Assembly: GCF_015529805.1 (NCBI RefSeq)
Contig: NZ_CP064654.1
Coordinates: forward strand, 1,798,001-1,862,000
Source: Qipengyuania soli
GTDB taxonomy: Bacteria; Pseudomonadota; Alphaproteobacteria; Sphingomonadales; Sphingomonadaceae
DNA: 64,000 nt
Direction of reading: 5' to 3'
Shown here: piece after piece, positions 22,461-42,992 of the stretch
Layout: every line of letters starts with the position of its first letter
Numbering within the stretch: the first letter of the stretch is position 1
Translations under genes and position numbers: made by a program
The notes under the pieces: model-generated
Databases searched by the model: none
Seen by the model: only the letters and a program-made list of their open reading frames with translations
Told to the model about the DNA's origin: nothing

Positions 22461-22475
22461 CCAAGGTACAATTGG
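22461..22475 (+). promoter_or_regulatory. PQQ-island box 1, upstream of aldehyde dehydrogenase
   Basis: CCAAGGTACAATTGG on the plus strand ends 64 bases before the aldehyde dehydrogenase ATG. It is one of six copies of a directional box (CCvAArGTnCAAT) found before genes of the alcohol oxidation island. It probably binds the LuxR-type response regulator encoded at 28088-28771; that link is inference. Confidence 0.6.
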
Positions 22476-22539
22476 CGACTCCGAGGAGCAGGCCCAAGCT
22501 GAAATCCGAATTTCGTATAGGGCGAGAGGAGAATGACAG

Positions 22540-24060
22540 ATGCTTGAGCAAGCCCTCAGCAAGTTCAGCGGCAAATCGCTGATCAAGGAAAAGTTCGACA
22601 ACTTCATCGGCGGCAAGTGGGTCGCCCCGGTCAAGGGTCAGTATTTCGACAATATTTCACCCGTCACGGGCAAGCCGGTATGCCAGGTTGCACGCGGCAG
22701 CGCGGAAGACATCGAACTCGCACTCGACGCGGCCCACAAGGCGAAGGATGCATGGGGCAAGACCTCGACAACCGAGCGCGCCATCATCCTGAACAGGATT
22801 GCCCAGCGCATGGAGGACAACCTCGACATGCTGGCCATGGTTGAAACGATCGACAACGGCAAGCCGATCCGCGAAACGACCGCGGCGGACATGCCGCTGG
22901 CGGTCGACCACTTCCGCTATTTCGCCGGTGCCCTGCGCGCGCAGGAAGGCTCCATTTCCGAGATCGACCACGATACCGTGGCGTATCACTTCCACGAGCC
23001 CCTCGGTGTCGTCGGCCAGATTATCCCGTGGAACTTCCCGATCCTGATGGCGGTGTGGAAGCTCGCGCCAGCGCTTGCAGCAGGCAATTGCGTCGTGCTC
23101 AAGCCGGCCGAGCAGACCCCCATGTCGATCATGGTTCTTATGGAACTGATCGGCGACCTGCTCCCCGATGGCGTGGTCAATGTGGTCAACGGCTTCGGTC
23201 TCGAAGCTGGCAAGCCGCTCGCCAGCAACAAGCGTATCGCCAAGATCGCATTCACCGGCGAAACGACCACCGGTCGCCTCATCATGCAATATGCCTCGGA
23301 AAACCTAATTCCGTGCACGCTGGAACTGGGCGGCAAGAGCCCCAACATCTTCTTCGCCGACGTCATGCGCGAAGACGACGACTTCTTCGACAAGGCACTC
23401 GAAGGCTTTGCCATGTTTGCGCTGAACCAGGGCGAAGTGTGCACCTGTCCCAGCCGCGCACTTGTCCATGAATCGATCTACGACCGCTTCATGGAACGGG
23501 CCATCGCCCGGGTCGAAGCAATCAAGCTCGGCAGCCCGCTGGATGCTGCGACCATGGTGGGTGCCCAGGCATCGAACGACCAGCTCGAAAAGATCCTCAG
23601 CTACATCGACATCGGCAGGGACGAAGGTGCCAATGTGCTGACCGGTGGCGGCCGTCAGGTTCACGATGGCGAACTGGCCGAGGGCTATTACGTCAAGCCG
23701 ACGGTTCTCGAAGGCCACAACAAGATGCGGATCTTCCAGGAAGAAATCTTCGGCCCAGTCCTATCGGTGACGAAGTTCTCTTCCGACGAGGAGGCGCTCA
23801 GCATCGCCAACGACACGCTCTATGGCCTCGGAGCCGGGGTGTGGAGCCGCGATGCCAACACCTGCTACCGCTTCGGCCGAGCCATCCAGGCCGGCCGGGT
23901 ATGGACCAATTGCTACCATGCCTATCCCGCGCACGCTGCCTTCGGCGGCTACAAGCAGTCGGGTATCGGTCGCGAGAACCACAAGATGATGCTCGAGCAC
24001 TACCAGCAGACCAAGAACCTGCTGGTCAGCTATAGCCCAAAGGCGCTCGGCTTCTTCTGA
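22540..24060 (+). CDS. NAD-dependent aldehyde dehydrogenase (ExaC/AcoD-like)
   Basis: A 506-residue aldehyde dehydrogenase. Seen are the cofactor-loop [21 protein letters not shown], the KPAEQTP segment, the general-base glutamate in LELGGKSPN and the nucleophilic cysteine in [12 protein letters not shown]. The N-terminus ([20 protein letters not shown]) and C-terminus ([17 protein letters not shown]) match the acetaldehyde/short-chain ExaC type. It should oxidise the aldehyde made by the PQQ alcohol dehydrogenase at 28834-30576, with NAD in the cytoplasm. GGAGAATGACAG precedes the ATG. The next gene is DUF779, its usual partner. One of the six shared boxes lies in its promoter. Confidence 0.9.
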
Positions 24061-24141
24061 TGCCGCGCGGCGCATCGCCGATATCGTTTCCCGTCGCGCC
24101 GACTGGTTCCTCTCGAGGCGGTCGGGAAACGGTTCCCCAGA

Positions 24142-24167
24142 GACGGGCAGGCTTGCGCCTGCCCGTC
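24142..24167 (+). terminator. strong hairpin between aldehyde dehydrogenase and DUF779
   Basis: A perfect 11-bp stem GACGGGCAGGC/GCCTGCCCGTC with a TTGC loop lies 8 bases before the DUF779 ATG; only CGATTT follows, so the U-tract is weak. A second complementary pair, CGTTTCCCG (24085-24093) and CGGGAAACG (24123-24131), lies just upstream. This could be a leaky terminator or a structure covering the DUF779 ribosome site. Confidence 0.5.
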
Positions 24168-24175
24168 CGATTTGC

Positions 24176-24601
24176 ATGATCCGGCCGATGGAAAGGCTTC
24201 TGGTCCCGCCGCGCATTCTCGCCACCGCCGAAGCGGAAGAGTGGATCCTCAAGCTGGAGGACATCCACGGCCCTCTGATGTTCCATCAGTCCGGTGGCTG
24301 CTGCGACGGTTCCGCGCCGATGTGCTTCCCGCGCGGGGAGTTCCGCGTCGGCGGGCAGGACGTGTTGCTCGGCCACCTCGTCAACGACACGCCGGTATGG
24401 ATCGGCGCTGCCCAGTTCGAATACTGGCGCCATACGCAGGTCACCATTGACGTCGTTCCCGGACGGGGATCGGGCATGAGCGTGGAAGCGCCCGAAGGCA
24501 TCCGCTTCATCGTGCGCAGTCGCGTATTCAGCGACGCCGAGGCAGAGGCCCTTGCCGCATGTGGCGAGCCTCAAAGAGGAGACACTTACGTAGGGCCCTG
24601 A
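24176..24601 (+). CDS. DUF779 protein, aldehyde dehydrogenase partner
   Basis: A DUF779 protein of 141 residues if started at 24176, or 137 from the second ATG at 24188. The signature is MFHQSGGCCDGSAPMCFPRGEF with its CC pair and third cysteine, followed by QFEYWRHTQVTIDVVPGRGSGMS and SVEAPEGIRFIVRSRVF. Family members almost always stand beside ExaC-type aldehyde dehydrogenases; no biochemical role has been settled to my knowledge. The conserved cysteines suggest metal or redox chemistry. No clear Shine-Dalgarno precedes either ATG, and a strong hairpin ends 8 bases upstream, so translation may depend on the structure or on coupling to the upstream transcript. Confidence 0.82.
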   Translation: MIRPMERLLVPPRILATAEAEEWILKLEDIHGPLMFHQSGGCCDGSAPMCFPRGEFRVGGQDVLLGHLVNDTPVWIGAAQFEYWRHTQVTIDVVPGRGSGMSVEAPEGIRFIVRSRVFSDAEAEALAACGEPQRGDTYVGP

Positions 24602-24736
24602 GCGCACCAAGACGCTTGGAAATCAGCGTTGCTTGGGCCATAATTTGACGCTCCCGCAAAACAGAAACCGACAGGTTCACGCGCGGGATAGGGGAGAGAG
24701 GTTCTGCACCGGAGACGCCAGGATCTGGACGGTCTC

Positions 24737-25855
24737 GTGACCGCTGCATCGCATGCCGACGATCCGGCATTGGCGGTGGCAGAAGTCGTGTCAGCAATCG
24801 GTGATCGGGCGCTTGCCGGTGGCGTGCTGTTCTGTTCGCAGAAGTTCGATCGCGAGGCACTCGCCGCCGAAATTTCGAGCCACCTCGCCCATTTTCCGCT
24901 GATCGGCTGTACCAGTGCAGGCGAACTCACGCCGCGAGGGTACGACGAGGACAGCCTTGTCTTCGTTGGTTTCCCGGCGGCGAGTTTCGCCATGTCGGTG
25001 CTGACCTTCACCGACCTCGATGGCTTCGACCGCGATGGTGCGCGCAGCCGGATCAGGCACCTCGCCGCCAACGCCCGGCAGGAAGCCCGGGTCCTTGGTA
25101 ACGAGCTTCACCAGGTGGCGCTGTTCCTCGTCGACGGGCTTTCCCACCGCGAGGAAGTCCTGACCATGACGGCACAGGATGCGTTGGGAGAAATCGAACT
25201 CGTCGGCGGGTCGAGCGGTGACGGTCTGCTGTTCCGCGAAACCGGCGTCCTTGTCGACAACGAGTTCCGCCGCGATGCCGCCGTCATCGCCATCCTGACC
25301 AGCTCGCGACCGCTGCACGTGTTTTCGGCAAACCATTACCAGCCCGGGCCGGAACGCATGGTAGTGACCGAAGCCGACAGCGAACGGCGGATCGTCTACG
25401 AGATCAACGCCGCTCCGGCGGCCGAGGAATATCTGCGCCTCGTAGGTGGCCCCGCTTCCAAGCTCGATACCGGCTTCTTCGCCGCCCACCCTCCGATGGT
25501 GCGCACCGGCGGAACCTACCATGTCCGGTCGATCCAGTCGGCCAATCCCGACGGCAGCCTGACCTTCTACTGTGCGATCGATACCGGCATCGTCCTGACC
25601 ATCGGCGAGCCCGTCGACCGGATCGCCCAGCTGAAGAGGATGTTCGAGGACCTGGAACAGCATGTAGGCTCACTCGACGCCGTTCTGGGGTTCGATTGCG
25701 TGCTCAACCGGGTCGATGCCGAGGATCGCCAACTGGCGCGGCAGGTGTCGGAAATCTATGCGGAAAACAACGTCATCGGCTTCAACACCTATGGCGAGCA
25801 GTATCTAGCAGCACACGTCAACCAGACCCTGAGCGGCTTGGCGATCGGCCGCTGA
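24737..25855 (+). CDS. FIST domain sensory protein
   Basis: A 372-residue protein made of FIST N and FIST C domains: GVLFCSQKFDREALAAEISSH, LIGCTSAGELTPRGYDEDS and VGGSSGDGLLF in the first part, and GFNTYGEQYLAAHVNQTLSGLAIG at the C-terminal end. FIST domains are proposed small-ligand sensors of signal transduction. It is fused in operon (TGATG overlap) to the hybrid kinase, as in the Pseudomonas ErcS' region that controls PQQ ethanol oxidation. The start is GTG 24737; in-frame stops close upstream exclude a longer ATG start, though its ribosome site is weak. It has no signal peptide, so it senses in the cytoplasm. The ligand is unknown. Confidence 0.85.
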   Translation: MTAASHADDPALAVAEVVSAIGDRALAGGVLFCSQKFDREALAAEISSHLAHFPLIGCTSAGELTPRGYDEDSLVFVGFPAASFAMSVLTFTDLDGFDRDGARSRIRHLAANARQEARVLGNELHQVALFLVDGLSHREEVLTMTAQDALGEIELVGGSSGDGLLFRETGVLVDNEFRRDAAVIAILTSSRPLHVFSANHYQPGPERMVVTEADSERRIVYEINAAPAAEEYLRLVGGPASKLDTGFFAAHPPMVRTGGTYHVRSIQSANPDGSLTFYCAIDTGIVLTIGEPVDRIAQLKRMFEDLEQHVGSLDAVLGFDCVLNRVDAEDRQLARQVSEIYAENNVIGFNTYGEQYLAAHVNQTLSGLAIGR

Positions 25856-28080
25856 TGGCCAGCAGGTTGCACATGCCCGGTCCTGCCATCGAGGAGGAAG
25901 AGGACGTTGCCGCCCTGCGCGCGCGGATCGAACGTCTCGAGAAGATCAACAACGCCCTCATCGACCGCGTGGAGCGTTCGACCGATATCCAGGGTGGGGC
26001 ATTCTCGATGTTCGAGACTGCCATCACGCTCGAGGCGATGGTTCGCGACCGGACTTCCGATCTCGAAGAAGCGATGGGCCAGCTCAACGTCGCGAACGCC
26101 AAGCTGGAAGCAGCGCACCACGATGCCGACGCGGCCCGCGCCCGTCTGCGCGATGCGATCGAGTCTCTCAACGATGGTTTCGCGCTGTTCGATGCCAACG
26201 ACCGGCTGCTGATGTGCAACCGCGCCTTCCTCGCCTTCTGGCCGGAACTGGAAGAGGTTGCAGAGGACGGTCCCAACTTTGCCGAGCTGGCCGAACGCCT
26301 CGCGAGAAGCGGGCGGACGATCGGCTCGCTGGTCGCCCCCGAGCGGTGGGTCAAGGATCGCATCGAGCGCCACGCACGCGCCGATGGCGTCCATGTGCAG
26401 GCGATGAGCGACGGGCGCTGGGTCCAGATCAACGAACTGCGAACCAGCGAAGGCGGCACTGTCGGCATTTATACCGACATCACCAGCGTGAAGGCGGAAG
26501 ATGCACGCCAGCGCGCCAAGGAGCTGGCGGCCAGGAACCTGGCGCTGCAATCGACGCTCGACACGCTGTCCGAAGGCGCCTGCCTGTTCGATGAAAACCG
26601 CAAGCTGCAGGCGTGGAACGGCGGGCTCGCCGACATGCTCAAGCTCGACAAGGGCGTGCAGTCGATCATCGGCACCCATGAAGAATTGGCAGCCTATTGC
26701 ATCGACGAACGCGGGCTGGATCGCCCGCAGGCTGTCGAATGGCGCGACGGGCGGAGCCCGCGAATCAGCACCGAATGCATGATGGGCGACCGCAACTTCG
26801 TCGTCCGCTCGGTCACGCTGGCGACGGGCGGGATGGCCTTTGCCTTCGACGATGTCACCGACCGCATCCGCTTCCAACGCTCCCTGACCGAGACGGCCGA
26901 GATGCTCGAGCGTGCGGTTGAGCAGCGAACCGCCGAACTGGTCGATGTGAACCGCGAACTGGTCGAAGCGAAGAACGAGGCAGAACGCGCCAACAAGTCG
27001 AAGACGAGCTTTATCGCCGCGGCAAGCCATGACCTGCTTCAGCCGCTGAATGCCGCGCGGCTGTTCGTATCGGCGCTCGGTGACCAACGGCTTCCCGGCG
27101 AGGCCAAACGCCTGACTGGCCAGGCTTCGGTGGCGCTCGATTCGGTGGAGGAACTGCTCGAGGCCCTGTTCGAAATTTCCAAACTCGATGCCGGTGCGGT
27201 TGCTCCGGACATCGAATCCCTGGACCTCGGCAAGACCTTCACCGCCCTGCGGATCGAGCACGGTCCTGCCGCCGAGGCCAAGGGCCTCGTCTTCAATGTC
27301 GAGCCGACCGACCAATGGGCGATGAGCGACCAGAGGATGCTGCGCCGCATTCTCCAGAACCTCGTTTCGAATGCGATCCGGTATACCGAGGAGGGCACGG
27401 TATCGCTTTCCGTGACCGAGGATGGCGATGAGGTGCGGATCCAGGTGCGCGACACCGGCCCCGGCATCCCGCCTGAGAAGCGCGAAGCGATCTTCGAGGA
27501 ATTCCGCCGGTTGAGAAGCACCAGCAAGCAACCGGGGCATGGTCTCGGACTTGCGATCGTCCGGCGGTATTCGGCGACACTGGGACACGCGATCGAGATA
27601 GATTCAGAGGCAGGTGATGGTGCGCAGTTCACCGTTATCGTGCCGAAGGGCGAACGCAGCCCGGTCCCTGCAGACGCGCGCCCGCAACGTCGCAGCAGGT
27701 CGCCCGCTTCCGCCGGTGCGGCGCTGCTGATCGACAACGATCCGGCCATCCTCGACGGTATGGAGGCCCTGTTGTCGGGTTGGGGATTGAATGTCGTCGC
27801 CGCAACTTCGCACGAGGATCCGCTTGTTCAGGCGGCTGCACTCGCTAACCCGGCGGTTCTGATTGCCGACTATCATCTCGACGACGGGATGACGGGCAAT
27901 GCGGCGATTACCGATTTGCGGAAGGCCGCAAACGTCGACCTGCCCGCCCTCGTCATCACCGCCGACCGCAGCGACGAGGTGAAGAACGAACTTTCCGACC
28001 TTGGAGTCCAGGTGCTGACCAAACCGGTCAAGCCAGCCCAACTGCGCGCGCTGCTGAGACAGCTCGGCGTGCTCCGCTAG
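25855..28080 (+). CDS. hybrid sensor histidine kinase/response regulator (NahK/ErcS'-like)
   Basis: A 741-residue soluble hybrid kinase. An N-terminal coiled coil (about 15-110, rich in Glu/Arg/Leu) is followed by two PAS-like domains beginning DAIESLNDGFALFDAND and DTLSEGACLFDENRK, another coiled coil, HisKA with phospho-His392 (AAASHDLLQPLNAARLF), HATPase (NLVSNAIRYTEEG, DTGPGIP, GHGLGLAIVRRY) and a C-terminal receiver with Asp672 (LIADYHLDDG). There are no membrane segments. It is translationally coupled to the FIST gene and convergent to the LuxR-type regulator. The likely role is to signal alcohol availability to that regulator; the order of phosphotransfer is unknown. Confidence 0.88.
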   Translation: MASRLHMPGPAIEEEEDVAALRARIERLEKINNALIDRVERSTDIQGGAFSMFETAITLEAMVRDRTSDLEEAMGQLNVANAKLEAAHHDADAARARLRDAIESLNDGFALFDANDRLLMCNRAFLAFWPELEEVAEDGPNFAELAERLARSGRTIGSLVAPERWVKDRIERHARADGVHVQAMSDGRWVQINELRTSEGGTVGIYTDITSVKAEDARQRAKELAARNLALQSTLDTLSEGACLFDENRKLQAWNGGLADMLKLDKGVQSIIGTHEELAAYCIDERGLDRPQAVEWRDGRSPRISTECMMGDRNFVVRSVTLATGGMAFAFDDVTDRIRFQRSLTETAEMLERAVEQRTAELVDVNRELVEAKNEAERANKSKTSFIAAASHDLLQPLNAARLFVSALGDQRLPGEAKRLTGQASVALDSVEELLEALFEISKLDAGAVAPDIESLDLGKTFTALRIEHGPAAEAKGLVFNVEPTDQWAMSDQRMLRRILQNLVSNAIRYTEEGTVSLSVTEDGDEVRIQVRDTGPGIPPEKREAIFEEFRRLRSTSKQPGHGLGLAIVRRYSATLGHAIEIDSEAGDGAQFTVIVPKGERSPVPADARPQRRSRSPASAGAALLIDNDPAILDGMEALLSGWGLNVVAATSHEDPLVQAAALANPAVLIADYHLDDGMTGNAAITDLRKAANVDLPALVITADRSDEVKNELSDLGVQVLTKPVKPAQLRALLRQLGVLR

Positions 28081-28087
28081 GTTCCGC

Positions 28088-28771
28088 TCAGGACGTGAAG
28101 CCGACCCGGTTGGCGAGAATCACCGCCTGTGTGCGGTTGTAGACGTTCATCTTCTGCAGCACCGCGGAGACATGCGCCTTTACCGTCGTCATGGACACAC
28201 CGAGGTCATAGGCGATCTGCTTGTTGACCCGGCCATTGACGAGCAGCCCGAGCACCACGCGCTGCTGCGGGGTCAGCGTATCGATCCTTTCGCGGATCGA
28301 GGCTTCTTCCTGGGCCTGCGGATCTTCGGCGAGTTCGCCCGGCATGTAGATTTCGCCGGCGAGCACCTGTTCGAGGGCATCGACGATCTGGTCGCGCTTC
28401 ATGGATTTGGGAATGAAGCCCGCCGCGCCAGCCTCCAAAGCCTCCTCCACGGTCTGGCGATCGTAAACGCCCGATACCATGACTACCGGAGTGCTGGGAA
28501 AGTCGCTGCGCAGCTGCTGGAGTGCTGAGAGGCGCGATGCGTCGGGAATATTGAGATCGAGGAGGACCAGGTCGACCTCTTGCGCCTCCGCCAGCATGTC
28601 GAGGGCTTCGGCGAAATCGCCTGCTTCCAGGATCTCGGCACCGGAATAGCGGAATTCCAGGATGCTGCGCAGGCCGTCGCGAACCAGCGAATGGTCATCG
28701 ACGATAAGGACGCGTTCGGGTGCCAGCGTGTCGCTCACTTCGGTCCTTTTCAGAGCCTGGGCATATGCCAT
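28088..28771 (-). CDS. LuxR-family response regulator (ErbR/ExaE-like)
   Basis: A 227-residue NarL/LuxR response regulator. The receiver has the acidic pair in VLIVDDHSLVRDGL, phospho-acceptor Asp72 (VLLDLNIPD), Ser/Thr in VVMVSG and Lys in GFIPKS. The DNA-binding domain at about 160-225 carries TLTPQQRVVLGLLVNGRVNK followed by IAYDLGVSMTTVKAHVSAVL. Such regulators activate the PQQ alcohol dehydrogenase genes in Pseudomonas (ErbR, ExaE). It lies directly downstream of, and convergent with, the hybrid kinase (7-base gap) and upstream in orientation of no other gene. It is the best in-window candidate for binding the six CCvAArGTnCAAT boxes; its own promoter does not show one. Confidence 0.87.
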   Translation of the reverse strand: MAYAQALKRTEVSDTLAPERVLIVDDHSLVRDGLRSILEFRYSGAEILEAGDFAEALDMLAEAQEVDLVLLDLNIPDASRLSALQQLRSDFPSTPVVMVSGVYDRQTVEEALEAGAAGFIPKSMKRDQIVDALEQVLAGEIYMPGELAEDPQAQEEASIRERIDTLTPQQRVVLGLLVNGRVNKQIAYDLGVSMTTVKAHVSAVLQKMNVYNRTQAVILANRVGFTS

Positions 28772-28833: not shown

Positions 28834-30576
28834 CTACTTGTTGACCTTGAACACCCAGAGCGCACCGCCCTGGCTAATGTCCTTGAAGGTCTTGGCGACC
28901 TCGCCGCCCCAGAGCGGCACTGCGCCACCCCAACCGGACATGACAGCGACGTACTGCTCGCCGTCCTGCGTCCAGGTGACCGGCGAACCGACCACGCCCG
29001 AACCGGTCTGGAACTTCCACAGCTCGGTTCCGGTCTTGGCGTCGAACGCCTTGAGGTAGCCTTCAGGCGTGCCGGTGAAGACGAGGTTGCCTGCCGTCGT
29101 CAGGACACCACCCCAAAGCGGGGCCTTGTTCTTGTATTCCCACACGATCTTGCCGGTCTTGGGGTCCATCGCACGCAGCGCGCCGATATGGTCTTCGGCG
29201 ATCGGCCTAATGGTGAAGCCGGCACCCAGGTAGGCCGCGCCCTTCTTGTAGGCGATCGGTTCGTTCCAGATGTCCATGCCCCAGTCGTTCGACGGAATGT
29301 AGAACAGGCCGGTGTCCTGGCTGTAGGCCATCGGCATCCAGTTCTTGCCGCCGAGGAACGACGGGCTGGAGAACACGACCGTGCCCTTTTCGGTGCCGTT
29401 CGGCGGACCGGGACGATTGGCGTCCACATAGTTCGGACGGCCGGTCTTGAGGTTGATGCCGTCCGCCCAGGTCGTCTGCATGACGAACTTGTGGGCGCCC
29501 ATCAGCTTCCCGGTGGTCCGGTCGAGGACATAGAAATAACCGTTACGGTCGGCCTTGGCGCCAAGCTTCATGTCCTTGCCGCCCAATTTGGCGTCGAAGG
29601 GAATGAACTCGTTCACACCGTCGAAGTCCCAACCGTCGTGCGGCGTGGTCTGATAATGCCACTTGATCTTGCCGGTGTCGGCATCGATCGCGAGCGTGGA
29701 CGAGGTGTAGAGGTTGTCGCCGGGGCGCAGGTGGCTGTTCCACGGCGCCGGGTTGCCGGTGCCGAAGTAGACGAGGTTCGTACCCGGATCGTAAGTGCCA
29801 CCAAGCCAGGTTGCGCCGCCACCGGTCTTCCAAAGGTCGCCCTGCCAGCTGGCATTGGTCTTGCCGGTGATGCCGTTGTCCTGGCCGTTGAGCGTGCCCA
29901 TGTGGCCTTCGATCACCGGACGCCGCCAGATGAGCTCGCCCGTGTCGACGTTGCGCGCCTCGACTGCACCGACGGCACCGAATTCGCCACCCGAGTTGCC
30001 GGTGATGACCATGTTCTTGACGATCAGCGGAGCCGCCGTGGCGGAATAGCCGGCCTTGTAGTCGGCGATTTCCTTGTTCCAGATGACCTTGCCGGTCTCC
30101 CGGTTCAGCGCGACGAGATGCGCATCCAGCGTGGCGAAGATGATCTTGTCGCCGTGGATTGCGGCACCGCGGTTGACCACGTCACAGCAGGGCATGATGC
30201 CGTCGGGAAGGCGAGCATTGTATTCCCACTTCTTCTCGCCTGTGCGCGAATCGAAGGCATAGAGGCGGGAATAGGAACCCGTGACGTAGATCGTGCCGTC
30301 ATAGACGATCGGCTGCGATTCCTGGCCGCGCTGCTTCTCGCCGCCGAGTGATGCGGCGAACACGGGAACGAGTTTCGCGACGTTGCCGGTATCGATCTGG
30401 TCGAGCTTGCTGAAGCGCTGCTGCCATGGCCCCATGCCATAAGTAAGCACGTCGCCCGGCGTGTTGGCATCGTTGACGAGGTCCTCGCTTGTCGGACCTT
30501 CGGCCCTTGCCGGTGCTGCCAGCGCGACCCCTGCGAGCGCGGTGGCGGCAATCAATGATTTGTACATGCCCTTCAT
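28834..30576 (-). CDS. PQQ-dependent alcohol dehydrogenase (quinoprotein), periplasmic
   Basis: A 580-residue eight-bladed propeller quinoprotein with a signal peptide (cleavage near APARA). It has the vicinal disulphide Cys130-Cys131 (MPCCDVV), the [10 protein letters not shown] segment, [28 protein letters not shown], and tryptophan-docking repeats such as [20 protein letters not shown]. There is no fused heme domain, so electrons go to a separate cytochrome (31582-32025). The pair Asp298-x-Asp300 fits the DxD signature of lanthanide-dependent enzymes, but alignment is needed. The start ATG 30576 has AGGAGGGAAGG upstream; a longer frame was rejected because it buries the signal peptide. A shared box lies about 95 bases upstream. 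Confidence 0.9.
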
Positions 30577-30686: not shown

Positions 30687-30712
30687 GCTAAGGCGACGAC
30701 CCGCAGAGCCGG

Positions 30713-36831: not shown

Positions 36832-37364
36832 TGGGAGATTTGCGGCAGGATTACGTGAGGTACAACAAGGGCGCGCGGACCTTGCACTGGGCAATTGCGG
36901 TGCTGGTCATCGCCAACCTCGCGACCGGCCTGCTGCATGATCCGCTCGAGCCCTATGTCCGGCTGATGCCGTTCCACAAAGCAACCGGCATGACCATTCT
37001 CGCCCTGTCCGTGGTGCGCATCGTCTGGCGCGCCATGTGGCAGCGGCCCCCGTATCCGCCCGGGATCTCCCGCAACGCGATCCTCTCTGCGCGCGTGGTG
37101 CAGGCCGCGTTCTACGCCCTGATGATCGTGATGCCGGTCACCGGATGGATTCTCGCATCGGCAGGGAAGTATCCGCTCGACTGGTTCGGACTGTTCGAAC
37201 TTCCCAAACTCCCGGTCGTGCGCCACAGCGCCGCTTATTCCATCGGGCACGAGATGCACGAGATCCTCGGCTGGCTCTTCCTTGCCCTTGTCGTGCTCCA
37301 TGTCGCGGCAGCCCTGCGCCACCATTTCCTCCTGAGGGAGCCGATCCTGCGACGGATGATGTGA
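36831..37364 (+). CDS. cytochrome b561 family membrane protein
   Basis: A 177-residue diheme-type cytochrome b561 with four transmembrane helices. Candidate heme ligands are His19 (ARTLHWAIAVLVIANL), His49 (MPFHKATGMTILALS), and the two histidines in SIGHEMHEILGWLFLALVVLHVAAALRHH. It is translationally coupled on both sides (TGATG with each TonB receptor), which is an unusual place for it. It may move electrons from the quinone pool to a periplasmic substrate, for example to reduce an imported metal complex. The ATG at 36831 is fixed by the overlap. Confidence 0.85.
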   Translation: MGDLRQDYVRYNKGARTLHWAIAVLVIANLATGLLHDPLEPYVRLMPFHKATGMTILALSVVRIVWRAMWQRPPYPPGISRNAILSARVVQAAFYALMIVMPVTGWILASAGKYPLDWFGLFELPKLPVVRHSAAYSIGHEMHEILGWLFLALVVLHVAAALRHHFLLREPILRRMM

Positions 37365-39613
37365 TGCGTCGCTGGGTTCTTGCTCCCCTCCTTGCCCTGC
37401 CCGTTCCGGCATTCGCGGAAGACGTAGAGCCGGTCATCATCGTCACTGCACCCGGCGGCGGGGTCGATGCGGACGAGGCTCTTGCTGCGAACCGCGAGGC
37501 GATCAGGCGTGGCAGCCGTCCGGACCTGTTCGGCGCGCTGGCGAACGAGGTGCCAGGCGTCTCGATCGCCGAAGCGCAGGGCAATCCGTGGGCGGGAGCG
37601 ATCACCTGGCGCGGTTTCTCGGCTTCCGCCCTGCAGGGCACCGAACAGGGCATGGCCGTCTATCTCGATGGCGTGCGCTTCAACCAGCCCTTCGGCGACA
37701 CGCTGACGCTCGACCTCGTTCCCGAAGCCGCCCTGGCCAGGGCCGAGGTGCGCGAGCCCAACCCGGTGTTCGGCCGCAACGCGCTTGGCGGCGCATTGCT
37801 GCTCCAGACGGCGACAGGTGCCGACCTGCCGGGGCTGAGGGGCTCAATTTCGACCGACAGCTTCGGCGGCTATGGCGGCAACGCGTCCTATGGCGGAAAG
37901 AACGGACTGCTGGTGGTTGAGGTGCTGCACGACGAAGGGTGGCGCGACTACAGCCCTTCGCGCCTGCTCCGCGGATTTGCGTCACTGGGCCACCATGGCG
38001 ACAGCTGGGGTGTCGATGGGACGCTGATCGCAGCCTCCACCAGGCTCACCGGTAACGGCGTCGCTCCGGTCGAACTGCTGGCTGCCGACTACCGCGCGAT
38101 CTTCACCCGGCCCGACTATTCGGACTCACGCTTCGGGCGCGTCACGGTGGCGCCCTATCTAGAGGTGGGGAAATCAGGACGGCTGACCGCCACGGTGCAT
38201 TACCAGTCATTGAAACGGGTTTCAGCGAACGGTGACCTGGCTGACTTTTCGGAATGCGATGCGGATCCCTCCCGGTTGTGCCTGTCCGACGACGACGAGG
38301 AGGCGAGCGACGTCCTGCTCGACGTGATCATGCGCGAGCCGGTGGCCGTGGACCCGACGGTGGACGAGTACGCCGTGTTCAACCGGGGTCGCGAGCGAAC
38401 CCGCGGCGGCGGGCTCGGCCTGCAGTATGTTGACGAAGTCGAAACCGATCTCGGCACGAGGCGAATAGCCCTCGGTGCCACCTGGGATCGCTACATGACC
38501 CGCTTCGACACGCGGGCCGAACTCGGCGAATTGCTCGACGACCGCTCGGTCGTCCCTCTAGGAACCGACCTCGTGGCAGCGAGCGGCGCGATTACGCCTG
38601 TGTCGGTGGACACCACCTTGCGGGATCTGTCGGTCTTCGCGAGCGTCGACATGCCGCTTGCCACATGGCTGGCAATCGAAGGCGGTGTGCGCTGGTCCGA
38701 CAATCGGGTCGAACTGGTGGACCTCATCGGCAGCGAGCTCAACGGAAACCACCGCTTCCAGCGCATCTCGCCAGCGGTGGAAGTCGATATCGAACCGACG
38801 GAAGATCTCGACGTCAGCCTTGGCTATGCCGAGACGAGCCGCAATCCCACCCCTGCCGAGCTTTCCTGCGCCGATCCCGATGCGCCCTGTGCCCTTGCCA
38901 ATTTCTTCGTCGCCGACCCGCCGCTGGAACAGGTCGTGGCGCGCAACTGGCATGCCGATGCGGGATGGGGATCAGGCGCGCTGGAACTCCGCCTTGGACT
39001 GTGGCGCAGCGATACGCGCAACGATATCCGCCACGTTGCCTCCGAAGTCCGCGGCCGCGCCTTTTTCGTCAATCTCGGCGGAAGCCGTCGTCAGGGCTTC
39101 GACGTGGCAGCTGATTGGCACCAGGGGCCATGGCGATTGGGTGCCGACTACAGCCTGACCGACGCGCGGTTTCGCAGCGATTTCTCGATCAGCAGCCCCG
39201 CCAATCCGCAAGCAGATGAAGACGGCCAGATCGCGGTCCGCCATGGCGACCGTCTGCCGGGTGTTCCGCGCCAAGCAATCAATGCCCGCGCGGGATACGA
39301 AAGCCAACGATGGGCGCTCAATGCGCAGGTCCGCTGGCGTTCCGGTCAGTTGCTGGTCGGCGATGAGGGCAACGACCTCGCAACAACGCCGGACTACTTC
39401 CTCGTCGACCTGACCGGCAAGCTCAGCCTGACGCGGCAACTCGACCTCGTCCTTGAAGTGCGCAACCTTTTCGATCGCAAATACGCGACCTTCGGCACCC
39501 TGGCCGAAATCGACGAGATCGAGCTGGAGGAAGCGCCCGGCGCCAGCGACCCGCGAGCCTATGCCCCGGGAATGCCGCGCCGCCTTTCGGTCGCCCTGAA
39601 GGCGCGCTTCTAA
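37364..39613 (+). CDS. second TonB-dependent receptor of the PQQ island
   Basis: A 749-residue TonB-dependent receptor with a signal peptide (cleavage near PVPAFA), a TonB-box-like EPVIIVTAPGGG, plug segments DLFGALANEVPGVSIAEAQGN, GMAVYLDGVRFNQPFGD and VFGRNALGGALLLQTATG, and a barrel ending RRLSVALKARF. An acidic loop with SECDADPSRLCLSDDDEEAS (about residues 292-311) contains two cysteines and eight acidic residues, unusual for a receptor loop and a possible metal-binding site. The stop overlaps by two bases the stop of the convergent metallo-beta-lactamase-fold gene. Cargo unknown; a metal or cofactor is more likely than a sugar. Confidence 0.85.
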   Translation: MRRWVLAPLLALPVPAFAEDVEPVIIVTAPGGGVDADEALAANREAIRRGSRPDLFGALANEVPGVSIAEAQGNPWAGAITWRGFSASALQGTEQGMAVYLDGVRFNQPFGDTLTLDLVPEAALARAEVREPNPVFGRNALGGALLLQTATGADLPGLRGSISTDSFGGYGGNASYGGKNGLLVVEVLHDEGWRDYSPSRLLRGFASLGHHGDSWGVDGTLIAASTRLTGNGVAPVELLAADYRAIFTRPDYSDSRFGRVTVAPYLEVGKSGRLTATVHYQSLKRVSANGDLADFSECDADPSRLCLSDDDEEASDVLLDVIMREPVAVDPTVDEYAVFNRGRERTRGGGLGLQYVDEVETDLGTRRIALGATWDRYMTRFDTRAELGELLDDRSVVPLGTDLVAASGAITPVSVDTTLRDLSVFASVDMPLATWLAIEGGVRWSDNRVELVDLIGSELNGNHRFQRISPAVEVDIEPTEDLDVSLGYAETSRNPTPAELSCADPDAPCALANFFVADPPLEQVVARNWHADAGWGSGALELRLGLWRSDTRNDIRHVASEVRGRAFFVNLGGSRRQGFDVAADWHQGPWRLGADYSLTDARFRSDFSISSPANPQADEDGQIAVRHGDRLPGVPRQAINARAGYESQRWALNAQVRWRSGQLLVGDEGNDLATTPDYFLVDLTGKLSLTRQLDLVLEVRNLFDRKYATFGTLAEIDEIELEEAPGASDPRAYAPGMPRRLSVALKARF

Positions 39614-40554
39614 CCGTCAATACGCGGGAAGAGTTCGGCTTCCAGGCGCGGGTAGAAGTGCGAAACGCTGCGCTGCAACTCGTAGCGCGCCGCTGCCATT
39701 CTGGCAAAGCGTGCCGGAATTTCCATCCGCCCCGCCTCGGTCATGTCGAGCCCGTTCGCAACTGCGCTGCGTAGCGCGGACTCGAGCCAGACCAGCCAGT
39801 CGCGCGTCTGGGCGATGCCCCTACCCTCGCGATCGAGGGGGCCGTGTCCGGGAACCAGCTGCCGATGGGCGATGGTTTCGAGCCGATCGAGGGTGGCGCG
39901 CCAGACCGCGAAGTCTGCATTGGGGGTGGCAGGTGCCCGGTCGAGGAAGACAGTATCGCCTGCCACCAGCGTGCCGGTTGCATGATCGACCAGGGCAAGG
40001 TCGCCCTCGCTGTGTCCCGCGAGCGCCAGCAGTTGGAGCTTCCGGCCGCCAAACTCCACCGGTCCTTCGGTCAGGTCACCGCTTGGCAACACCACCTCGG
40101 TTCCGGTCATCCATCCGGACAACAGCCGGTACATTCCGTCCGAAAAGCCGGAACCGTCCCGTTCGAGGTCGTGGCGGGTTGCCGGCAATGCGTGGATCTC
40201 CGCATCGGGAAAGGCCCCGGAAGCGAAGGAGTGATCGGGGTGCAGATGGCTGACGTAGACCAGCGAGACCGGAGCACCAGTCGTCCGTTCGATCAAGGCT
40301 GACAATGTCTTGCCGAACTTGAGCGAGGGGCCCGGGTCGAAAAGGATCGTCCCCGCGTCGCTGGCCATGAACACCGAATTCGCAACTGCGCCGCCATTTT
40401 CGAACAGCAAGGCATCGTCCGCCCCACGCACGAGCCAGATGCCATCCCCGATGCTGGTCGCCTGCGGGGTATAGGTCCCGGCATACTGCTCGGCCCGTGC
40501 GGCGACCGGCAATGCCGCCGCACCGGCAAGGAAGGCGCGACGCGCTAGCCTCAC
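39610..40554 (-). CDS. quinoprotein relay system zinc metallohydrolase (MBL fold)
   Basis: A 314-residue metallo-beta-lactamase-fold protein with an export signal (RRAFLAGAAALPVAARA, twin-arginine-like). The metal motif is HLHPDHS (about residues 103-109), with further ligands in LAGHSEGDLALVDHATG and a QLVPGHGPL segment. It fits the 'quinoprotein relay system zinc metallohydrolase' group associated with PQQ dehydrogenases and SoxYZ-like carriers. The start is GTG at 40554, overlapping the stop of the SoxYZ-like gene (GTGA), so the two form an operon. The substrate is unknown; a thioester or persulphide on the SoxYZ-like carrier is a possible target. Confidence 0.8.
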   Translation of the reverse strand: MRLARRAFLAGAAALPVAARAEQYAGTYTPQATSIGDGIWLVRGADDALLFENGGAVANSVFMASDAGTILFDPGPSLKFGKTLSALIERTTGAPVSLVYVSHLHPDHSFASGAFPDAEIHALPATRHDLERDGSGFSDGMYRLLSGWMTGTEVVLPSGDLTEGPVEFGGRKLQLLALAGHSEGDLALVDHATGTLVAGDTVFLDRAPATPNADFAVWRATLDRLETIAHRQLVPGHGPLDREGRGIAQTRDWLVWLESALRSAVANGLDMTEAGRMEIPARFARMAAARYELQRSVSHFYPRLEAELFPRIDG

Positions 40555-41336
40555 GGACGTGCTGCGGCGAGCCTGCGCCCAGTCGCGGCGTCGAGCGAGC
40601 CGGAAAACTCAAGGCCATTGGTGTCGCGTGCCGCAACGTCCAGTTTACCGGAAACTTTCGGCTCGACGATCAGGGTGAAAGACGGGTCTTCCGATACTGA
40701 GCCATAGATCGTCATGTCCGCCAGCAACGTACCTCCAGCATCGCGAACCTTCACCGTGTCGATGTTGTAGCCTGGAATATTCTCGACGAGGCCCGTGTCC
40801 ATCGGATGGCGGAACCCGAAGCGCAGGCGCGTCTCTTCGCCTTCGGCCCATGCAGCGCCGCGCATTTCGCCCAGATGGTCAGCCCAGTCGCCCTTCACCC
40901 GGCTCACCGGAGGCGCGGAGCATCCGCCGCCTGCGGCGTCCACCCACCCGCCGGAGACATGCCACAAGCCGTCCGCAGTAAGCACTGCTGCGCGGACGGG
41001 GGTGCGCTGGTCGAGCTTGATCCTGGTAGCGACGAAGGCTTCGGCAGCGAGCGGCCTGTAGTCGAGCGCGATGGGGATGGGGTTGAGATCGGCAAAGAGG
41101 ACGATCCGCCTGACCTCTCCGAGCGCGCGCGCATCGACCGTGACCGGCATCACGTGCTGGTTTTCCGTGACCACCGGCAGTTCGACCTTCACCGCATCGT
41201 CGAAGGTGTAGGAAGCGCCTTCGAACACCTGCGCGGCATGGAAATCCCACATCGGCGAGCCGAGTGGATCAGGCTCTCCCGCCTGTGCCATGGCAGGAAG
41301 CACTAGCGCCGCAATGACAATCAGGATGCGTCTCAT
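40551..41336 (-). CDS. quinoprotein-dehydrogenase-associated SoxYZ-like carrier
   Basis: A 261-residue periplasmic protein (signal ending AMAQA) that fuses a SoxY-like domain, ending in GGWVDAAGGGCSAPP with the single carrier cysteine, to a SoxZ-like domain (LRFGFRHPMDTGLVENIPGY). In Sox systems the SoxY cysteine carries sulphur intermediates. Here, next to a PQQ dehydrogenase and without other sox genes, the fused carrier defines the 'quinoprotein-associated' family of unknown chemistry. The ATG at 41336 gives the signal peptide; the longer frame upstream is not signal-like. A shared box is centred about 43 bases upstream. Confidence 0.84.
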   Translation of the reverse strand: MRRILIVIAALVLPAMAQAGEPDPLGSPMWDFHAAQVFEGASYTFDDAVKVELPVVTENQHVMPVTVDARALGEVRRIVLFADLNPIPIALDYRPLAAEAFVATRIKLDQRTPVRAAVLTADGLWHVSGGWVDAAGGGCSAPPVSRVKGDWADHLGEMRGAAWAEGEETRLRFGFRHPMDTGLVENIPGYNIDTVKVRDAGGTLLADMTIYGSVSEDPSFTLIVEPKVSGKLDVAARDTNGLEFSGSLDAATGRRLAAARP

Positions 41337-41371
41337 ACCAAAGGACAATACACGCTTCCTTGCCCCAACGC

Positions 41372-41386
41372 CCATTGGACTTTCGA
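41372..41386 (-). promoter_or_regulatory. PQQ-island box 5, upstream of the SoxYZ-like gene
   Basis: On the minus strand TCGAAAGTCCAATGG ends 35 bases before the SoxYZ-like ATG, the shortest spacing of the six. It also lies 15 bases before the divergent rhodanese-like gene, where it would occlude its promoter more than activate it. Confidence 0.5.
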
Positions 41387-41401
41387 ACGAAAGAGAATTT
41401 C

Positions 41402-41968
41402 ATGGCCAAGGCCCAATATCTGCGCATCGCCCTTGCCGGGGTCCTGCTTTCGGCGGCGCCGGTGACCGCGCAGGATTTCGATGCCGACGGCTATCGCAGC
41501 ACACGCTATCGTGCGCCCGTCCAGTCAAACCCTTCCCCCGCCCGACCGATCGCGCTCGATGCTGCCCTGCAACTCCAGCCCGGTAAGGAGGCGCTGTTCC
41601 TCGACGTGATGCCGGTAGAAGGCGGGGTGCGGGACGAGGTCAGCGGCAAATGGCGTCTCTCGAGCTCGCACGAGACCATTCCCGGCGCCCAATGGCATCC
41701 CGAGACGGGCCGTTCCCCGGTGAACGAGGCCCTGTGGTCCGCGCTCGTCGCTTCGGTCGCCGAGGCGAGACAGGCGTCACCCGACCTGCCCGTCGTCGTC
41801 TTTTGCCGCTCCGATTGCTGGATGAGCTGGAATGCCGCGCGCAGGCTCGCGCGCCAAGGGTTCAAGGACATCTTCTGGCTGGCCGAAGGCACCGACGGCT
41901 GGCACGAGAGCGGGCGCAGACTCGTCGTCGCAGTACCGATCGTGGTTCCCTACAAGACCTGCAATTGA
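41402..41968 (+). CDS. PQQ-catabolism-associated rhodanese-like protein (CXXCW family)
   Basis: A 188-residue periplasmic protein with a signal peptide (cleavage near APVTAQ). The rhodanese-like fold centres on VVVFCRSDCWMSWNAARRLARQG, where the cysteine pair is spaced C-x3-C followed by Trp, and IFWLAEGTDGWHE near the end. The family is known as the PQQ-dependent catabolism-associated CXXCW proteins. A cysteine pair in a rhodanese fold next to a SoxY-type cysteine carrier and a metallohydrolase suggests sulphur or thiol transfer; this is inference. The next gene is 12 bases away. Confidence 0.82.
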   Translation: MAKAQYLRIALAGVLLSAAPVTAQDFDADGYRSTRYRAPVQSNPSPARPIALDAALQLQPGKEALFLDVMPVEGGVRDEVSGKWRLSSSHETIPGAQWHPETGRSPVNEALWSALVASVAEARQASPDLPVVVFCRSDCWMSWNAARRLARQGFKDIFWLAEGTDGWHESGRRLVVAVPIVVPYKTCN

Positions 41969-41980
41969 AGGAGAGAGAAT

Positions 41981-42274
41981 ATGGCAAGCCTGGTTGTGAG
42001 TTACCCCGCCAAGGAAGGGGCCAAGTTCGACGCGGACTATTACCGCGACACGCATATCCCGCTGGTCGAAAAGCATTGGGGCAGCCACGGCATGACGGGA
42101 GCAGACGTCTACTGGCCAGCCGATGGCGAGCAGCCCAATGTCGCGATGGTGGTGCTCAATTTCTCCAGCAGCGATGCGATCGACGCGGCACTCGGGTCGG
42201 CTGGCACGGCAGAAGTCATGGGCGACGTGCCCAAGTTCACCGACATCCAGCCGACGATCTATCGCACGGCGTAG
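41981..42274 (+). CDS. EthD family protein
   Basis: A 97-residue protein of the EthD fold (dimeric alpha-beta barrel). Landmarks are LVVSYPAKEGAKFDADYYRDTHIPLVEKHWG at the N-terminus and VGDVPKFTDIQP-like MGDVPKFTDIQPTIYRTA at the end. EthD proteins are small auxiliary or heme/ligand-binding proteins of oxidation systems, of uncertain function. AAGGAGAGAG precedes the ATG and the gene follows the rhodanese-like gene by 12 bases, so both probably share a transcript ended by the hairpin at 42282. Confidence 0.83.
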   Translation: MASLVVSYPAKEGAKFDADYYRDTHIPLVEKHWGSHGMTGADVYWPADGEQPNVAMVVLNFSSSDAIDAALGSAGTAEVMGDVPKFTDIQPTIYRTA

Positions 42275-42281
42275 GACACAT

Positions 42282-42317
42282 GAAAGGGCCGGTCCGCGCG
42301 GCGGAGCCGGCCCTTTC
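42282..42317. terminator. bidirectional terminator between EthD and the lipoprotein cytochrome
   Basis: An 11-bp stem GAAAGGGCCGG/CCGGCCCTTTC with a 14-base loop. The A-rich left arm and T-rich right arm let it work for both converging genes. Confidence 0.7.
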
Positions 42318-42328
42318 TCATACCGTCC

Positions 42329-42913
42329 TCAGCGTTGCTTCTTCAGGTAGTCGATGATTTCCTGGCGCTTCGCGGCGTCCTTGATACCCGGAAAGCTCAT
42401 GCGATTGCCCGGCACCAGCGCGCGCGGGTTTTCCAGCCATGAGTGAAGCGTCGCCTCGTCGAAGGTAAGGCCCGAATTCTTGAGCGCATCGGAGTAGGAA
42501 AAGCTCCCCTGCCCCGCCTTCGCCCCGTATGCACCCCAAAGGTTCGGACCAAGCTTGTCCTCGCCCCCCTTGTTGGCGGTGTGGCAAACGGCGCACCGGC
42601 CGAATGCTGCGGGCGGAGCGGCGGCGACGACTGCCGCAGCCTCTGCAACAGCGGCCTTGGTCGGTTCGGCAGCAGGCTTGGCCGTTTCGACCGCCTTCGG
42701 CGTGTCCTCCTTTGCGACCTCGGCTTCAGCAGCAGCTTCAGGAGCCGCACCTTCTTCTACAGGAGCTGCTGTTTCCTCTACAGCAGGCGCATCGACCGGC
42801 GATGCCATCGTCGTGTCGTCGGCTGGCACTTCGGCAACATCGTCACTGCCACCCGAACACGCGGCGAGAGAAAACGCCAGTGCGGAACCGGCCAGAAGTG
42901 CGCGAAATGCCAT
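42329..42913 (-). CDS. lipoprotein cytochrome c with Ala/Glu-rich tether
   Basis: A 194-residue c-type cytochrome. The lipobox LAAC puts the lipid on Cys at about residue 18. An 80-residue Ala/Glu/Pro/Val-rich tether follows (for example VEETAAPVEEGAAPEAAAEA), then a cytochrome c domain with heme site CAVCH (RCAVCHTANKGG), LGPNLWGAYG, and distal Met in RMSFPGI. The anchored, tethered head can shuttle electrons from periplasmic donors such as cytochrome c-550 to an oxidase. GAGGGAAGGATTACG precedes the ATG at 42913. A shared box is 64 bases upstream, linking it to the alcohol oxidation island despite separate transcription. Confidence 0.85.
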   Translation of the reverse strand: MAFRALLAGSALAFSLAACSGGSDDVAEVPADDTTMASPVDAPAVEETAAPVEEGAAPEAAAEAEVAKEDTPKAVETAKPAAEPTKAAVAEAAAVVAAAPPAAFGRCAVCHTANKGGEDKLGPNLWGAYGAKAGQGSFSYSDALKNSGLTFDEATLHSWLENPRALVPGNRMSFPGIKDAAKRQEIIDYLKKQR

Positions 42914-42977
42914 CGTAATCCTTCCCTCGAGAAATTCCCTCACCTGGAGCGATGTGTCGCATGCTGCGCATCGCCAC

Positions 42978-42992
42978 GACATTGGACCTTGG
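42978..42992 (-). promoter_or_regulatory. PQQ-island box 6, upstream of the lipoprotein cytochrome
   Basis: On the minus strand CCAAGGTCCAATGTC ends 64 bases before the cytochrome ATG, the same spacing as at the aldehyde dehydrogenase. Confidence 0.6.

Follow-up and report, generated by a model that had tools for sequence, protein, structure and literature searches.

A 64,000-nucleotide stretch of the Qipengyuania soli genome (the window; all positions refer to it) holds an island of alcohol-oxidation genes whose promoters share a short directional box, which raises the question of what protein reads this box and to what effect. From comparative sequence evidence, we consider it highly probable (about 85%) that the boxes are bound by a NarL/LuxR-type regulator encoded in the island itself (28088-28771, minus strand), which would switch the alcohol-oxidation genes on jointly.

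Seven boxes in an alcohol-oxidation island

An earlier note on this DNA had listed six such boxes. All six were found at their coordinates, each oriented toward its own gene, which confirms the shared directional promoter boxes as real. The set was incomplete, a seventh, divergent box (core at 41338-41349, plus strand) lying 5' of the PQQ_CXXCW gene and opposite SoxYZ. The proposed consensus CCvAArGTnCAAT, read with N for v, fits three of the six exactly; the porin, SoxYZ and lipoprotein cytochrome sites deviate at the first letter, and the 15-mers originally given are not all in the same register. The common core of the six is the 12-mer C[CG]AA[AG]GTNCAAT. An imperfect 18-bp inverted repeat, ATTGnACC-AA-GGTnCAAT, abuts the predicted -35 element, and the box makes up its centre and its proximal half.

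Box 1 (22455-22472, plus) precedes the gene for an ExaC-type acetaldehyde dehydrogenase (22540-24060, plus; NF050026, 946 bits, cut-off 900), with a predicted -10 CAAGCT at 22495-22500. The DUF779 gene that follows (24176-24601, plus) is possibly on the ExaC transcript and has no box of its own (0/22 promoters among the sequences compared below). Box 2 (30675-30692, minus; predicted -10 TAGGCT) precedes a PedH-like PQQ alcohol dehydrogenase gene (28834-30576, minus; TIGR03075). The best PDB match of this enzyme is 6zcv (848 bits), which we take to be PedH; the two have an identical DGWDFDG stretch where 1flg (ExaA) has DAWDFSG. A second Asp two residues after the catalytic Asp (D-x-D) is the mark of lanthanide-type PQQ alcohol dehydrogenases (PedH/ExaF), and the predicted island enzyme carries this signature (DFD; ExaA has DFS). 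Box 3 (32125-32142, minus) stands before the gene for a cytochrome c-550 of the PedF family (31582-32025, minus; TIGR04494, 204 bits, cut-off 122), downstream of which a periplasmic binding-protein-like gene (30713-31579, minus; PF00497) lacks its own box (0/22 promoters).

Box 4 (33180-33197, plus; predicted -10 CATTTT) precedes a porin gene (33273-34691, plus; Porin_4, 5.7e-15). TonB-dependent receptor 1 (34798-36831, plus) begins about 107 bp past it; the gap holds no terminator-like site and one promoter-like site (34694-34721), and the receptor may be co-transcribed with the porin or have its own promoter. Box 5 (41374-41391, minus; predicted -10 TATTGT) serves a SoxYZ-like carrier (40551-41336, minus; PF13501, PF08770) whose start codon lies just 37 nt past the box and whose downstream neighbour encodes SoxH-like quinoprotein relay metallohydrolase 1 (39610-40554, minus; TIGR04558). 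The previously overlooked box 6 (41332-41349, plus) opposes box 5 at 47 bp and precedes the gene for a rhodanese-like, PQQ-dependent catabolism-associated CXXCW protein (41402-41968, plus; TIGR03865, 140 bits, cut-off 128). Box 7 (42981-42998, minus) lies before a lipoprotein cytochrome c gene (42329-42913, minus; PF00034; lipobox by eye). Both the porin and the tethered cytochrome that had been placed in the regulon have boxed promoters, in a set of seven members rather than six.

In a matrix scan, a check of the kind that the note had suggested, a 20-position matrix built on 93 relatives' sites matched the window seven times at or above 18.0, only in the seven island promoters, with a runner-up of 8.8 and two matches at or above 18.0 in twelve order-1 Markov copies altogether; the 93 sites had been chosen through a window-site matrix, and the window test is not fully independent. 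The exact 12-mer has nine copies across the 2.91-Mb genome, at the six boxes of the note and at three other positions; with one mismatch allowed, there are 82 matches against 41 for the reversed pattern, so that about half of these are background. Judged by eye, one extra copy lies before an unidentified ORF, another precedes an atpH-like gene by about 150 bp and the third is inside an ORF; given these positions, the three are likely due to chance and were not taken as regulon members. The ORF holding the last copy appears TonB-receptor-like and lies on the opposite strand. The word is short and degenerate, and its extra exact copies would suit mere chance similarity of the boxes as well; set against the matrix specificity in the window, the conservation in orthologous promoters and the CCAARGTNCAAT counts relative to controls, this explanation is extremely improbable.

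Promoter geometry and a two-way promoter

The inverted repeat recurs in a logo of the 100 sites scoring at least 10 with the window matrix, a selection that partly determines the 12-bp core and leaves the upstream half-site and the -10 outside the 12-mer used. The flanks of the logo are flat and positions 11-13 are TTG-like. A -10-like xAnnnT occurs at registers 33-35 in 82 of the 100 sites and in at most 16 at any other register, overlapping ones apart; its signal reaches 1.1 bits, compared with a jitter-null maximum of 0.41. Within the window, the pattern is absent from the predicted registers of three of the seven promoters (c-550, CXXCW and lipoprotein cytochrome). Placed just upstream of the predicted -35 and at a fixed distance from the -10-like hexamer, the box is in the position of an activator, as judged from the predicted promoter elements. 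The same constant distance could mean that an alternative sigma factor recognises the boxes as core elements of its promoters. We regard this as very improbable, since the inverted-repeat symmetry points to a dimeric activator, TT-centred versions of the site stand before ExaC in relatives, and a sigma-70-like -35/-10 pair lies downstream of the box.

The SoxYZ and CXXCW promoters interlock; 10 of 12 genomes have the two boxes opposed at 47-49 bp. Each box therefore overlaps the -10 predicted for its partner, so that occupancy of one could obstruct the other. This arrangement is what a repressor or dual-use site would offer, for instance with repression at the interlocked pair; the general position of the boxes, upstream of -35 and fixed to the -10-like hexamer, is instead that of an activator, as for CrbR at acs, and we judge repression or dual use improbable.

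Under the preferred reading of the boxes as activator sites, an inducing signal would lead to phosphorylation of the regulator, presumably via the hybrid kinase, with which the FIST protein would act as co-sensor. A regulator dimer would then bind the 18-bp repeat, centred near -44, and recruit sigma-70 RNA polymerase. The periplasmic alcohol-oxidation system would be turned on as a single unit, made up of the PedH-like dehydrogenase, c-550, aldehyde dehydrogenase, porin, SoxYZ/SoxH, CXXCW accessories and lipoprotein cytochrome, perhaps with TonB receptor 1 switched on along with the porin.

Conservation of the boxes and the candidate regulator

Orthologous promoters were compared in 28 sequences, namely the genome itself, 12 relatives, G048, G091 and a further 13 loci, either named or from metagenomes (L042, the same genome as G165, was left out), using 220-bp upstream stretches from tblastn-extrapolated starts. 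Each count, window included, takes in those sequences where the gene in question was located, and the relatives are mutually non-independent. The box precedes the PQQ alcohol dehydrogenase gene in 22 of 23 promoters, c-550 in 21 of 22 and the porin in 20 of 21, and so recurs in relatives, a check that the earlier note had proposed. ExaC has the box in 14 of 23 promoters by matrix; inspection by eye shows a TT-centred version in six of the other nine, with a mismatch in one. The remaining targets gave 9/12 (SoxYZ), 8/12 (PQQ_CXXCW) and 6/9 (lipoprotein cytochrome c). Upstream regions of TonB receptors 1 and 2 contained a box in 3/15 and 2/15 cases, respectively, the window not being among the latter. 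As had been claimed for the window, the FIST, kinase and regulator promoters carry no box, there or in relatives (0/23, 0/25 and 0/28), and none was found in the regulator's own operon. ExaC genes of regulator-less genomes, a small control, had none either (0/4).

Of 199 family genomes, 12, the present one among them, have the dehydrogenase orthologue (E<=1e-150), and the regulator accompanies it in 12/12. Exact CCAARGTNCAAT matched 46 times in these 12 genomes against once for a reversed-pattern control, and 37 of the 46 matches are no more than about 17 kb from the regulator (hand count). A further 38 genomes gave 29 matches with a control of 20; 35 of them come from the 184 family genomes that have no regulator match, and the remaining three, G133, G048 and G091, have such a match and lack the dehydrogenase. 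All six exact CC-type sites of G061 fall within its cluster; G106, G167, G147 and G009 have some outside. When outside-cluster boxes in relatives (L152-L158) were scored and some of the downstream ORFs read, no cluster gene was recognised.

The regulator has REC and GerE domains (PF00072, PF00196), belongs to the NarL/LuxR family and retains its phospho-acceptor D72 invariantly in 28 sequences. Its best NCBIfam model is ErdR (NF041830), at 168 bits with a cut-off of 390, which places it in the same subfamily and not as ErdR itself. On the opposite strand are genes for a FIST sensor-domain protein (24737-25855, plus; PF08495, PF10442) and a hybrid histidine kinase, PAS-PAS-HisKA-HATPase-REC (25696-28080, plus), whose longest ORF starts before the FIST ORF ends and which has no evident membrane span (hydropathy maximum 1.17). 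Of 14 Rhizobiales loci that have the FIST-kinase-regulator genes and no alcohol dehydrogenase, 13 carry the box before a coxS-like 2Fe-2S gene; most of the 14 are close relatives, and the coxS query came from one of them. A box scoring 22.2 also lies before an acs-like ORF (by eye) adjoining a regulator homologue in Chromohalobacter.

Together, the boxes in orthologous promoters, the co-occurrence of dehydrogenase and regulator, the likeness to the CrbR site (see below) and the boxes of the Rhizobiales module support the local LuxR-type response regulator as the activator of this regulon, and it is, as first suggested, the best candidate binder. The boxes could be real and yet be read by another NarL/LuxR-family regulator or an unrelated factor, the local regulator having other targets. 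Binding of the local regulator is a prediction, other LuxR-type regulators are surely present in this genome, and two loci carry the regulator with no box nearby: G133 (regulator at 55%, FIST, ExaC and porin; no box of at least 10 in 40 kb) and L048 (regulator at 62%; no box of at least 11 in 20.6 kb). The orthologous dehydrogenase is absent from both loci. This alternative is unlikely, as the regulator is the single match at E<=1e-40 in its genome, co-occurs with the cluster in 12 of 12 genomes, is accompanied by the box in Rhizobiales despite a different target, and is related to CrbR, whose site is similar. Further points against the main reading are that no box of at least 11 was found in the locus DNA scanned of L052 (regulator, partial FIST and kinase) or of L107, where regulator, FIST and kinase are joined by a 67% dehydrogenase lying at the edge of the contig, and that boxes are mostly missing near regulators that have a similar recognition helix and lack FIST neighbours.

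Related systems and the supply of PQQ

The CrbS/CrbR (MxtR/ErdR) acetate regulon of Pseudomonas and Vibrio has a regulator of the same NarL/LuxR subfamily. Its operator, ACTU, is described in the available part of the source as an imperfect 17-18 bp inverted repeat with an ACC..GGT-like core, at -52 to -36 directly before the RpoD promoter, and as needed for activation (PMC5715377). The island sites have the same architecture, an imperfect inverted repeat with an ACC-centre-GGT core just upstream of a predicted -35. When 8 of the 23 ACTU sequences (Table 4, PMC5715377) were scored with the matrix, each exceeded 99.9% of random 17-mers; five of the eight reached the lowest island site (7.6) and the other three scored 1.2-2.9, most of the eight falling well short of the island sites. 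By sequence, the box operator thus resembles the published ACTU as a close relative, differing in its preference for the GGTnCAAT half. The kinases differ: CrbS is an SLC5 transporter-kinase fusion, and in the island a FIST protein accompanies a PAS hybrid kinase. The targets differ too, acs/actP for CrbR and alcohol oxidation here. The site is of a known kind; this gene set and the two-way promoter look new.

The island also resembles the ped/exa clusters of Pseudomonas, a likeness that is in part general background. According to the portion of PMC12997753 available, these clusters share with the island a PQQ alcohol dehydrogenase, c-550, ExaC, SoxYZ/SoxH-like and CXXCW genes, and their systems (PedH, PedE/ExaA, PedF, AgmR/ErbR) likewise pair LuxR-type response regulators with hybrid kinases. 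The available text of PMC12997753 and PMC6115532 gives no common binding site for the ped regulators, and that of the latter, on PedS2/PedR2, contains no binding site, motif or consensus. The EmaR motif of Acinetobacter, as far as presented in the accessible part of PMC9603970, looks different and was rejected as a counterpart of the box. Among the papers listed in our literature search, none showed a FIST-kinase-NarL regulator module in this role. For this module, the present analysis supplies a testable operator together with its promoter architecture and a list of targets; the operator matrix is usable to find regulon members in relatives.

Unlike the ped/exa clusters, the island has a porin, two TonB receptors and the FIST-kinase pair, and lies in a genome in which no PqqC match was found. 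The same was true of 10 of the 12 regulator-bearing relatives searched, and this suggests PQQ auxotrophy; the other two (G009 and G133) matched at 382-385 bits in the same search. For PqqE, the genome gave only sub-threshold radical-SAM matches and no true PqqE. The findings point to bacteria that possess a PQQ alcohol dehydrogenase and, it appears, rely on others for PQQ itself. The route of PQQ entry then becomes a question, as the available text of PMC12124388 reports PqqU to be almost absent from such bacteria, with one report in Alphaproteobacteria. TonB receptor 2 (37364-39613, plus) is a distant sequence relative of PqqU (YncD) (4e-18). It was rejected as PqqU itself: of the signature Y/F/W99, R304 and R365 (PMC12124388, as far as available), position 99 was covered and Y99 aligns to Q, read by eye, the R304 and R365 stretches falling outside the alignment. 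A YncE-like propeller gene is present in the island.

A wider proposal, which we offer tentatively and hold to be doubtful as a whole, is that the FIST-hybrid kinase-regulator module may be a widespread alphaproteobacterial alcohol/aldehyde sensor with its own operator code. In PQQ-nonproducing sphingomonads, it would run a scavenger alcohol-oxidation regulon, importing its cofactor (PQQ, perhaps with lanthanide) via an island TonB receptor other than PqqU and dividing SoxYZ and CXXCW expression by a mutually exclusive interlocked promoter. In the two PqqC-bearing relatives, the pqqC locus of G133 has one weak site (10.6), and in G009 a box scoring 14.6 precedes the run cupredoxin-EthD-pqqB-pqqC, the third gene of which we take to be pqqB.

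Boxes and genes of the island

The earlier note had proposed that six promoters of the island share a directional box, at 22461-22475 (ExaC aldehyde dehydrogenase), 30672-30686 (PQQ alcohol dehydrogenase, ADH), 32123-32137 (cytochrome c-550), 33186-33200 (porin), 41372-41386 (SoxYZ) and 42978-42992 (lipoprotein cytochrome). All six were found at these positions, each oriented toward its own gene. They share the 12-mer C[CG]AA[AG]GTNCAAT as a core, and the 2.91-Mb genome holds nine exact copies of it, namely these six within 20.5 kb and three elsewhere. With up to one mismatch, there were 82 genome matches versus 41 for the reversed pattern, and about half of such matches are therefore background; this search also identified a seventh island box (41338-41349, plus strand) before the PQQ_CXXCW gene divergent from SoxYZ. 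A matrix from 93 sites of relatives detected exactly seven sites scoring at least 18.0 (18.0-25.3) in the 64-kb window, the next best reaching 8.8, and two such sites in total in twelve Markov copies of the window; this test is not fully independent because a matrix built from those seven window boxes had served to pick the 93 sites. Outside the island, an exact box scoring 17.8 (G000:C1:1703903, locus L160) precedes an atpH-like gene by about 150 bp, probably by chance.

The island comprises genes for ExaC, a DUF779 protein, a FIST protein, a PAS-PAS hybrid kinase with a receiver, a NarL/LuxR regulator and the ADH. These are followed by a binding-protein-like gene, c-550 PedF, a YncE-like propeller, the porin and two TonB receptors, and then by a SoxH-like hydrolase, SoxYZ, the CXXCW protein, an EthD-like gene and the lipoprotein cytochrome. 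The best alignment of the ADH (848 bits) was to 6zcv, which we take to be PedH; the two share a DGWDFDG stretch, at the place of which ExaA (1flg) has DAWDFSG. The second Asp of the DFD stretch is a mark of lanthanide-dependent enzymes. Hydropathy peaks at 1.17 in the hybrid kinase, which shows no clear membrane span; in the FIST protein a single stretch of 19 residues reaches 1.77, and this protein could be soluble or membrane-bound. Elsewhere in the window (9862-20666), a tryptophan-halogenase-like gene lies beside a TonB receptor, alpha-amylase and GH97 genes in what looks like a carbohydrate-use locus.

Conservation of the promoters in relatives

The regulator was present in 15 of the 199 family genomes sampled, own included (E<=1e-40); the three congeners among them had no match. 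This patchy distribution suggests gain of the cluster by transfer or repeated loss. The names attached to the closest homologues of the regulator, and to loci carrying the cluster, point to a sphingomonad as the source organism. We mapped the neighbourhoods of 12 relatives plus further loci with the same cluster and counted, window included, boxes scoring at least 10 and lying no more than 220 bp upstream of each gene; scores came from a 12-position matrix built on the window's seven boxes. Conservation in orthologous promoters was high for ADH (22/23), c-550 (21/22) and porin (20/21), and boxes also preceded ExaC (14/23), SoxYZ (9/12), CXXCW (8/12) and lipoprotein cytochrome (6/9) genes. Six of the nine ExaC promoters below threshold carry a site centred on TT instead of AA, one of the six being mismatched. 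The FIST, kinase and regulator genes, described in the earlier note as lacking the box, were without any throughout (0/23, 0/25 and 0/28), as were the control promoters of DUF779 (0/22), the binding protein (0/22) and SoxH (0/14). Counts were low for EthD (1/13), receptor 1 (3/15), receptor 2 (2/15) and the propeller gene (3/23), which has a common intergenic region with c-550. The gap between the porin gene and receptor 1 contains one promoter-like site (34694-34721, 9/12 matches) and no terminator-like site; receptor 1 is a possible member of the regulon. We consider the proposed regulon real and well supported.

Anatomy of the site

A logo of 100 sites revealed an 18-bp imperfect inverted repeat, ATTGnACC-AA-GGTnCAAT, with flat flanks. 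The box as originally described corresponds to the centre plus the better conserved, promoter-proximal half, so that calling it directional was right in effect. Positions 11-13 are TTG-like (T in 98%; T in 53% or G in 33%; G in 56% or T in 37%), as expected of a -35. The -10-like hexamer xAnnnT occurs at registers 33-35 in 82 of the 100 sites and, overlapping registers aside, in no more than 16 elsewhere; 300 draws of a jitter test gave a maximum of 0.41 bits versus 1.1 observed. Given the TTG-like positions and the xAnnnT spacing, the site is predicted to be centred at about -44, with transcription starting about 34 nt behind CAAT. Four of the seven window promoters (ExaC, ADH, porin and SoxYZ) have xAnnnT at the predicted place, and those of c-550, CXXCW and the lipoprotein cytochrome do not. 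The SoxYZ start codon lies 37 nt behind the box in the own genome, where the predicted transcript would be almost leaderless.

The SoxYZ and CXXCW promoters are interlocked, their boxes facing each other 47 bp apart at 41332-41391. Of 12 genomes compared, 10 have the top-scoring boxes of the two strands opposed at 47-49 bp in this interval (L043 and L046 fall outside this pattern), despite an intergenic gap that varies from 50 to 125 bp, and both boxes score at least 10 in 8 of 12. Each predicted -10 would overlap the proximal end of the opposite box and its -35, and the two promoters therefore probably cannot be occupied simultaneously.

The regulator and the supply of PQQ

The island's own NarL/LuxR regulator is the candidate protein that would bind the boxes. 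An ADH orthologue (E<=1e-150) was found in 12 of the 199 genomes, own included, all of them regulator-bearing. These contain 46 exact copies of CCAARGTNCAAT, 37 of them no more than about 17 kb from the regulator, and one of the reversed control; 38 comparison genomes, 35 without a regulator match plus G133, G048 and G091, contain 29 copies and 20 of the control. Evidence against this candidate comes from regulator-bearing G133 and locus L048, which have no boxes nearby; the orthologous ADH is absent from both loci. L052 and L107 encode the regulator, FIST protein and kinase and have no box of at least 11 in the DNA examined; the L107 contig has a 67% dehydrogenase starting at its edge. As a small control, four ExaC genes from genomes lacking the regulator were scored, and none had a box.

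In Rhizobiales, 14 loci within the series L053-L074, mostly of Mesorhizobium and near relatives, combine the regulator, kinase and FIST genes with a coxS-like 2Fe-2S gene, the coxS query having been taken from one of them. In 13 of the 14, the 300 bp preceding the 2Fe-2S gene contain a box scoring at least 11 (for example L068:7439), which argues that the box goes with the FIST-kinase-regulator module rather than with one target. xAnnnT follows at equal spacing in 8 of the 14, and no dehydrogenase or ExaC match was found within the 12-21 kb examined. The boxed 2Fe-2S gene is of the molybdenum-hydroxylase type.

The nearest named subfamily to the island regulator is CrbR/ErdR. For acs, the reported CrbR/ErdR site is the ACTU motif, an imperfect inverted repeat that spans -52 to -36, and four ACTU mutations abolish activation (PMC5715377); ErdR is reported to shift an actP-I promoter fragment and not acsA-I, which has no motif (PMC8402216). 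Table 4 of PMC5715377 lists 23 sequences, some as predictions only; eight of these, scored with the island matrix, each exceeded 99.9% of random 17-mers, and only five of the eight reached the lowest island site. The matrix, with a background of about 0.47 matches of at least 11 per 20 kb, also scored 22.2 at a Chromohalobacter site upstream of an ORF that looks acs-like by eye and adjoins a homologue of the regulator. Recognition helices are similar: the island regulator has SMTTVKAHV, the Rhizobiales module GETTVKAHV and the Chromohalobacter protein SEATIKAHV. Since the last type also occurs in the box-free Bradyrhizobium locus L075, the helix alone is not decisive. We regard the boxes as marking a putative new regulon, under a variant form of CrbR/ErdR-type control. 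By title or abstract opening, and with most subscription journals outside coverage, we found no publication describing the operator, nor one on the module as a controller of PQQ alcohol oxidation.

The search for PqqC had no match in the own genome, and none in 10 of 12 relatives that carry the regulator; the other two, G009 and G133, gave matches of 382-385 bits. Some of the relatives are drafts, in which a single absence is not certain. PqqE matches were weak, of the same kind as in all 14 control genomes. As PqqC was not found and PqqE matched only weakly, these bacteria probably take up PQQ, and the own genome is that of a probable PQQ auxotroph with a PQQ ADH. PqqU is reported once in Alphaproteobacteria (PMC12124388). 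Receptor 1 matches PqqU marginally and receptor 2 (37364-39613) resembles it distantly; identity of receptor 2 with PqqU was rejected, its signature residue Y99 aligning to Q, and this receptor may provide a different route of uptake, for PQQ or for a lanthanide. The earlier note had suggested looking for boxes before pqq genes, and one case was found, in G009, where a box (L137:4013) precedes a cupredoxin-EthD-pqqB(-like)-pqqC run.
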